From positions 248,001 through 312,000 of IMG/VR virus record IMGVR_UViG_3300005613_000002: a stretch of 64,000 nt of DNA. One strand, given 5' to 3'. Position 1 is the first letter of the stretch. Every line of letters starts with the position of its first letter. Below, piece after piece: positions 4,012-5,506 of this stretch. The position numbers were made by a program, and so were the translations under genes. The notes below the pieces were generated by a model that had not been told where the DNA came from, did not search any database, and saw only the letters and a list, made by a program, of their open reading frames with translations. This DNA comes from a virus.

Positions 4012-4701
4012 TTAATGTAAATCGTAAACTTCTATTTTATCTTTTGGTTTTATTTGAATAGTATTAACAATTTTATCCATGTTATATAATACCATCATTC
4101 TTTCACCCCACCCAAAAGCATTATCAACAATATCATAATCAATACCATTCGACACATAGAATTCTCTTAGGTATCTAGTATTAGTTGCCTTAATTGCTTT
4201 TTCATTTAAAATTATATTATTAAAGACATATGCTTTAACCTTATCACCATCAATATACTCTTGCAATCTTTCCCAAAGCATCTTCTTCTTATTACCAATA
4301 ATATATGTGTTAATAAAATCTTTCACCTTATTAACATCAAGGGTAGCTTTATTAATATCAACACCATTTTCAACAGTAATTAGATACAATTTCCTACTTC
4401 CTCTACTATATTTTGCTGCTGTTTCATAATGTGTTGTAATATATAATCCAGCACCAAATTCATATCTTCCATTTTTTTGGGAAATTATATCATTATAGTT
4501 ATCCAGATTACCACCATGCCAGAAATTCATCGTATTTGGTATGTTTGGTGGTGTTATTGTGTCTTCATCAATAATATCATTAGTGATATCAATACTATTC
4601 AATCTATCTCCAAAACGTGGTAAACCTGCTTGAGGATATTCTGATGAACTATCATTCGTAAAAGTTTCAACTTCTTCTTTAATTATTTTTTTTATATTCA
4701 C
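4012..4701 (-). CDS. predicted ADP-ribosyltransferase, 229 aa
   Basis: The core matches the ADP-ribosyltransferase fold: NFWHGG at about residue 60 (first NAD-contacting strand), then GAGLYITTHYETAAKYSRGSRK (second strand/helix with the conserved Tyr), then a C-terminal strand ending in MMVLYN. This is most like the H-Y class. The catalytic third residue cannot be set without an alignment. The N-terminus MNIKKIIKEEVETF is a short amphipathic peptide ending in Glu, similar to that of the late gene at 39805-40425. An AGTATTTATAA-like late box lies 14 nt upstream. T4 Alt, an ART packaged in the head and injected, is the closest functional analogy, but that is inference. Confidence 0.6.
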   Translation of the reverse strand: MNIKKIIKEEVETFTNDSSSEYPQAGLPRFGDRLNSIDITNDIIDEDTITPPNIPNTMNFWHGGNLDNYNDIISQKNGRYEFGAGLYITTHYETAAKYSRGSRKLYLITVENGVDINKATLDVNKVKDFINTYIIGNKKKMLWERLQEYIDGDKVKAYVFNNIILNEKAIKATNTRYLREFYVSNGIDYDIVDNAFGWGERMMVLYNMDKIVNTIQIKPKDKIEVYDLH

Positions 4702-4740: not shown

Positions 4741-4973
4741 AATGTAGATTGGGTAGGCTTTCATTATCATACTCATGCATTTTCAGATAATTACCTTAAT
4801 GATTAGTTTTGTCTTTTGACCAGATTACGATTACCGATCATTTTACAAAAGCAGAGCATCATATCATCACTCCCCACGGAAATTTATCCATCTTCGCTAT
4901 TTTGTTCAAAACTCAGTAGCTACATTTATTGTTTATCATAGAAAATAGCCCATCGAAGTTCCTACTACATTAT
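4741..4973 (-). ncRNA. putative large structured RNA (about 230 nt) behind its own promoter
   Basis: No reading frame occupies this interval, and its base composition is more even than the flanking genes. In the minus-strand RNA the two ends pair: AAUGUAG (4971-4965) with CUACAUU (4747-4741), extended by UAGG (4964-4961) with CCUA (4757-4754). Inside, CUUCG plus CUAUUUU (4958-4954, 4948-4942) pair with AAAAUAG plus CGAAG (4903-4892) around a 5-nt bulge. CUUUUG/CAAAAG (4851-4846/4818-4813) and AUUAUC/GAUAAU (4791-4786/4768-4763) form further stems. A promoter at 4985-5015 predicts a start just before the first stem. It is either an independent RNA or the 5' leader of the ADP-ribosyltransferase mRNA. 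Confidence 0.6.
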
Positions 4974-4984
4974 TTTAATATTTA

Positions 4985-5015
4985 AATATACGAAATTAAT
5001 TCTAATTTGTTACAA
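4985..5015 (-). promoter_or_regulatory. phage-type promoter TTGTAACAA-N14-CGTATATT
   Basis: Exact palindrome and spacing, with one change in the -10 box. The first downstream ATG is about 280 nt away, so the immediate product is the structured RNA at 4741-4973. It overlaps the end of the gene at 5017-5214 only at its upstream edge. Confidence 0.75.
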
Positions 5016-5016
5016 A

Positions 5017-5214
5017 CTATATTAACATTGTTTTAATTATTTCAAAATTATTTTCACTAATTACTTCACCAGAACTATCAGCATCGCCAAACAATTGATA
5101 TTCAACAGATTTATCTTCACCAATATATTTTCTGATAGCTACGCCAGTTTTTTCACATTTAATTTCAGTACAATCCCAATTAGTTTTACTGCATTTAAAT
5201 TCTCTAATTTCCAT
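5017..5214 (-). CDS. hypothetical protein, 65 aa
   Basis: Unknown small protein with three Cys residues in its first half (FKCSKTNWDCTEIKCEKTG), possibly metal binding, followed by a beta-rich tail. The ATG at 5214 is chosen because an earlier in-frame start would be TTG and overlap the upstream gene. Confidence 0.6.
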   Translation of the reverse strand: MEIREFKCSKTNWDCTEIKCEKTGVAIRKYIGEDKSVEYQLFGDADSSGEVISENNFEIIKTMLI

Positions 5215-5218
5215 GATA

Positions 5219-5506
5219 TTATTGTTTAAATTTCCATCTCCAAAAACCAAATACTGACATTTTTTTTATATCTAGTAATTCACTTTTTAAATTATAAATT
5301 TCATTGTTTTGTTTTAATATTTCTTCGCTGGCTTCTTTTAATTCTGTAGCCATTTTTGCTACTGCATCATCATCAGTATGACAAGTTTGTGTTGTGTTTC
5401 CACTTGCAATATAATTTACACAAATTGTATGATTTTTTGTTTGTCTTTCTGCTTCTTGTAATGCATGATACCTTACAAGGGATAATAAAACTGTATCTTT
5501 TTCCAT
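5219..5506 (-). CDS. hypothetical protein with coiled coil, 95 aa
   Basis: Function unknown. A Cys/His-containing middle (HTICVNYIASGNTTQTCHTDDDA) is followed by a helix at about residues 50-80 with coiled-coil character (ELKEASEEILKQNNEIYNLK). Co-oriented with close neighbours. Confidence 0.6.
   Translation of the reverse strand: MEKDTVLLSLVRYHALQEAERQTKNHTICVNYIASGNTTQTCHTDDDAVAKMATELKEASEEILKQNNEIYNLKSELLDIKKMSVFGFWRWKFKQ

Follow-up and report, generated by a model that had tools for sequence, protein, structure and literature searches.

A putative structured RNA gene in two diverged copies in the genome of a giant phage with probable Bacteroidota hosts

A 231-nt stretch on the minus strand of a giant (jumbo) phage genome and a diverged copy of it in the same genome suggest a folded RNA that belongs to a hitherto undescribed family. 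Judged from the sequence, the RNA candidate probably exists, in a form somewhat different from that drawn in a preliminary description of the region, and its second copy is the main evidence for it. The two copies, their limits, the promoter family and a set of compensatory stems are supported by the sequence. With somewhat better than even confidence we read the element as an independent gene for a structured RNA that acts in trans, carried in two diverged versions by a jumbo phage of Bacteroidota. The window (the whole stretch of 64,000 nucleotides that was analysed) comprises bases 248,001-312,000 of a 321,624-base virus record. The best named-phage matches of the DNA ligase encoded by this record were the Cellulophaga phages phi17:2 and phi4:1 (53% identity), and a Bacteroidota phage is therefore likely; the host of this giant phage is probably a member of the Bacteroidota. 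About 50 tRNA matches were found in the whole record, mostly at 122-160 kb and thus distant from both RNA copies. Nearly 50 of them cluster at G000:C1:122564-159616, and a few of these contain insertions or have long variable parts, for example at 148146-148268.

The features of the locus in the window and of the second copy are the following.

4741..4971, minus strand: structured RNA gene, 231 nt from P1 to P1, delimited by a diverged paralogue with similarity confined to the unit
4988..5015, minus strand: promoter TTGTAAC-N16-CGTAT (elements 5015-5009 and 4992-4988), an exact member of the motif
4012..4701, minus strand: downstream ORF of 229 aa with GTG start, weakly ADP-ribosyltransferase (ART)-like (Pfam DUF3990, PARP)
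L003:2250-2459 (G000:C1 about 225249-225458), minus strand: paralogue, 210 nt, found by a DNA search of the phage's own genome

The paralogue lies about 27.5 kb from the window copy, and the match at G000:C1:225245-225369 was 70% identical across its best 143 nt (E 9e-13). Comparison of the two units (231 and 210 nt) gave a local score of 91, which was matched by 0 of 200 shuffles. The flanks were at background, with 7/200 shuffles as high for the upstream and 60/200 for the downstream side, and similarity stops at the closing helix. Within the unit the 5' domain is barely conserved between the copies (5/200 shuffles as high). A protein-coding gene was considered and rejected: both copies carry stops in all six frames and are separated by indels of 1, 2, 3 and 17 nt, leaving no open, conserved frame. 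The window locus itself had been described as gene-free, which is borne out on the minus strand, where it is flanked by an ORF at 5017-5250 and by the ART-like ORF at 4012-4701.

Both copies keep an intact promoter upstream. The motif TTGTAAC-N16-CGTAT has 46 exact matches in the record of 321,624 bases versus 0 for the reversed pattern, which confirms the precisely spaced phage promoter proposed earlier as one member of a genomic family and provides the window copy with the promoter of its own that an independent ncRNA gene should have. The span first given for the RNA (4741-5015) contains this promoter; the RNA unit proper is 4741-4971. The distance from CGTATA to P1 is 15 nt in the window copy, and an RNA 5' end near 4977-4980 would agree with this spacing. 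The proposal that the closing helix starts at the RNA 5' end thus suits the window copy but not the paralogue, where 40 nt separate the -10 element from P1. In the stretches read, the distance from promoter to start codon was usually 8-35 nt, and both RNA loci are among the few outliers. In G000 as a whole, most promoter sites before about 205 kb lie on the plus strand and most of those between about 208 kb and 272 kb on the minus strand; this switch suggests divergent transcription near 206 kb. Tandem promoter copies occur within about 215 nt at L171:8080-8295 (plus strand, G000:C1 about 202079-202294), upstream of a 774-aa ORF, and the short stretch between these promoters near 202 kb is possibly non-coding.

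The position of the RNA between promoter and ORF resembles that of mRNA leaders and riboswitches, and an unlikely but real possibility is that it acts in cis as a 5' leader controlling the downstream gene(s), here the ART-like ORF, through ligand binding, RNA stability or read-through. Long structured leaders are common regulators. The ART-like ORF begins 39 nt after P1, no terminator was predicted between the RNA and this ORF, and no promoter of the TTGTAAC-N16-CGTAT type lies between them, so that the ORF is probably co-transcribed with the RNA. At the second locus, however, the order is promoter, RNA, a tRNA-Val(AAC)-like sequence about 11 nt past P1, and then a 95-aa ORF; an ART gene adjoins the window copy only, and the association is therefore inconsistent. 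Furthermore, the closed P1 ends both copies ahead of the downstream element, a conserved expression platform was not recognised, and Rfam gave no match. The preliminary description had named an independent RNA and an ART leader side by side. Since the paralogue has its own promoter and its downstream neighbours differ, the stand-alone, trans-acting RNA is favoured over the leader. The tRNA-Val(AAC)-like gene of the second locus (L003:2030-2240, minus strand, G000:C1 about 225034-225239) carries a large insertion of more than 130 nt in its anticodon loop. It was found by ARAGORN in intron mode and overlooked by the normal tRNA search; the insertion may represent an intron or an RNA embedded in the tRNA.

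The two copies were aligned by hand, anchored on conserved motifs, with 138 of 216 columns identical. Five nested stems (P1-P5) pair in both copies, the sole exception being one P3 mismatch in the window copy. The elements of the window copy are listed in 5' to 3' order of their first strands.

4965..4971 / 4741..4747, minus strand: P1, AAUGUAG/CUACAUU; AAAGUAG/CUACUUU in the paralogue, one double change
4959..4962 / 4878..4881, minus strand: P2, GGAA/UUCC; GAAC/GUUC in the paralogue, two double changes
4916..4923, minus strand: palindrome GUAGCUAC in the 5' domain; a different palindrome in the same columns of the paralogue
4870..4876 / 4750..4756, minus strand: P3, UGGGGAG/CUACCCA, with one G.A mismatch
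4857..4861 / 4797..4801, minus strand: P4a, UGAUG/CAUUA; a G-U to G-C change
4852..4856, minus strand: internal-loop strand CUCUG, identical in both copies
4845..4850 / 4807..4812, minus strand: P4b, UUUUGU/ACAAAA; two U-A to U-G changes
4786..4790 / 4764..4768, minus strand: P5, UUAUC/GAUAA; CAUUA/UAAUG in the paralogue

In P5 both sides have changed in 4 of 5 pairs, and a helix as good arose in 2 of 400 column shuffles; its loop GAAARUGCAURAGUA is conserved. P3 is paired at 7/7 positions in the paralogue (UGGGUAG/CUACCUA), and CUCUG sits in a longer motif common to both copies, GUGGGNAGUGAURAUAUGAUGCUCUG. The best nested sum of double changes was 9, a value reached in 5 of 1000 column shuffles, and the named stems hold 7 of these 9 (P1 1, P2 2, P5 4). 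Compensatory changes, as expected of an independent ncRNA gene, are thus present in P1, P2 and P5, in a comparison of two sequences. When the partners in P4 and P5 were slid by 1 to 3 columns, pairing dropped from 100% to 34-69%. With two sequences and a hand-set alignment the covariation statistics are modest, and we regard them as good but not conclusive. Several features drawn in the preliminary description can be compared with this fold. The end pairing of AAUGUAG (4971-4965) with CUACAUU (4747-4741) is exact, and as P1 it covaries in the paralogue. The additional UAGG/CCUA pairing competes with GGAA/UUCC and UGGGGAG/CUACCCA, both of which are better fits to the two copies. Internal stems are present, but the bulged 12-bp stem, although drawable, is absent from the minimum-energy fold and has no counterpart in the paralogue. 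A possible pseudoknot, AUGCUC/GAGUAU, would have 6 bp in the window copy but only 4 in the paralogue. A home-made procedure that folded and aligned the copies simultaneously led to over-fitting of the 5' domain when structure was weighted heavily, and no claims are based on it.

In the poorly conserved 5' domain the paralogue carries an 8-nt palindrome, GUCAUGAC, at the columns of GUAGCUAC; such a pair was found in 30 of 20,000 column shuffles. The palindrome is a candidate site for dimerisation, or it may form one side of a helix within the molecule. Intramolecular alternatives appear in the predicted folds as GGCUAU/GUAGCU in the window copy and GUCGUGA/UCAUGAC in the second copy, and such pairing with an upstream strand would account for the palindromes without dimerisation. 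We consider it doubtful that the element represents a new phage RNA family with palindrome-driven self-association, that is, a small dimeric scaffold akin to the ornate RNAs, within a wider promoter-driven, tRNA-associated RNA set that would include the interrupted tRNA-Val neighbour and an RNA of about 360 nt described below.

Folding energy bears on a further reading, in which the unit is a decaying or functionless duplicate and the covariation arose by chance in two AT-rich sequences. The minus-strand fold of the window copy had a z of -0.76 (41/200 shuffles) and that of the segment 4740-4930 a z of -1.33. The minimum-energy folds are thus no better than those of shuffles, and energy alone gives no proof of a structured RNA. 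In addition, the consensus fold lies 8-11 kcal/mol above the minimum-energy fold of each copy; this cost implies that unmodelled contacts or a partner are needed, or that some stems are wrong. Taking these energies, the two-sequence sample and the 0.5% of shuffles that reach the nested score into consideration, chance would be a conceivable explanation. Conservation is patterned, however, with invariant loops and covarying stems, it is bounded by P1, and the promoter is intact in both copies, which makes decay improbable.

A duplicated DNA element, such as a site for replication, recombination or packaging or a mobile unit bounded by inverted repeats, would explain the pairing as DNA hairpins or symmetric protein sites. 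The unit is indeed duplicated, has inverted-repeat ends and keeps an 8-bp palindrome with a different sequence in each copy. Against this, both copies lie behind a genuine phage promoter, the covariation of P5 is that of an internal stem and not of a symmetric site, and several one-sided changes are G-U wobbles, which pair only in the minus-strand RNA; we consider a DNA element very improbable. On the minus strand 33/34 and 34/34 consensus pairs are formed in the two copies, compared with 32/34 and 31/34 on the other strand. The plus-strand fold has the better z (-1.9), but promoter and wobble pairs nevertheless favour the minus strand. Finally, it is extremely unlikely that the RNA serves specifically as substrate or partner for the ART-like enzyme encoded next to it, for example in the RNAylation of host proteins: such a use has a precedent in T4, for which a viral ART is reported to link RNA chains to proteins of the host (PMC10468400), and the transcript would begin in an A-rich stretch, but the similarity of the ORF to Pfam DUF3990 (E 8.6e-5) and PARP (E 4e-4) is below the curated cut-offs, searches of PDB and NCBIfam revealed no relative, and the second copy has no ART neighbour.

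Searches for relatives were made at several levels. Rfam cmscan of the whole window returned 0 matches at gathering, and targeted searches with E up to 5 gave only chance snoRNA-type matches for the window copy and two chance matches for the paralogue. The earlier remark that no known family has this shape therefore holds for Rfam. By blastn against isolate phages, nothing was found for the window copy and two chance matches for the paralogue. A covariance model (R1) applied to about 100 viral records, chosen because they carry related genes for DNA ligase or exonuclease, detected no homologue; weak matches of at most 20.5 bits did not align to the conserved motifs. No homologue was found in 297 Bacteroidota genomes with stricter filters. 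Candidates from degenerate or gapped DNA patterns (five scans of viral contigs and one of genome contigs) failed the covariance model or were plainly coding, the pattern candidates reaching no more than about 15 bits, whereas the two real copies score 155-171. As marker proteins of most related records show about 50-70% identity, and records very close to that of the window may be hidden from the scans, the absence applies beyond close relatives. Comparison of synteny with relatives was unsuccessful, as the gene neighbourhood is not conserved.

By analogy, GOLLD and ROOL are nearest in kind. GOLLD is a large ornate RNA of phages and prophages whose function is unknown, with a conserved 3' and a variable 5' region and with tRNAs nearby or in its linker (PMC12286853). 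ROOL is a phage-encoded structured RNA that is often close to tRNA islands (PMC12286853). Like GOLLD, the present RNA is a phage-encoded ncRNA with conserved 3' and variable 5' parts; one of its copies precedes a tRNA-like sequence, and the tRNA cluster at 122-160 kb is distant from both. As a phage structured RNA it also resembles ROOL, whose kissing-loop assembly offers a parallel to the palindrome as a candidate self-association site. Many GOLLD members exceed 800 nt and ROOL is about 600 nt long, whereas the RNA found here has 231 nt, with no Rfam match to GOLLD at gathering or with E up to 5 and none to the ROOL covariance model. The far greater length of both, together with the lack of a covariance match, is why we do not file it as a member of either.

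Within our preferred reading as a stand-alone RNA gene, each copy would be transcribed from the phage-specific promoter and the RNA would fold with its two ends paired through P1. P1 would lead to a junction that bears two parts, a variable 5' domain containing P2 and a core of conserved elements, namely P3, P4, whose CUCUG internal loop is invariant, and P5, whose loop is conserved. The core would probably serve as the binding surface for a protein or RNA partner of host or phage. The mature RNA would probably be trimmed out of a longer transcript that includes the downstream content; at the second copy, where the tRNA-like sequence starts about 11 nt past P1, RNase P could generate the RNA 3' end. 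We infer expression and processing, as well as the binding surface, the action in trans and a specific target.

Another RNA candidate lies outside the window at L171:6726-7090 (plus strand, G000:C1:200725-201090), where a non-coding stretch of about 360 nt follows a TTGTAAC-N16-CGTAT promoter. Its predicted fold is strong (z -2.9, 1/100 shuffles) and embeds a 59-nt tRNA-like domain with GGUAUUG/CGAUACC and a T-arm, to which the tRNA model assigned 15.5 bits. The stretch is single-copy, belongs to no Rfam family at gathering and has no phage blastn match; relatives yielded three weak matches, and both of those examined look coding. It is possibly a more striking RNA than the candidate at 4741-4971.

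Outside model hosts, descriptions of structured RNAs from giant phages are, to our knowledge, few. A short (231 nt) RNA gene with two copies and its own promoter is a concrete target for studying the roles of such RNAs during infection. With an interrupted tRNA and a large tRNA-containing RNA in the same genome, one transcriptome from this group of phages could test several new RNAs.
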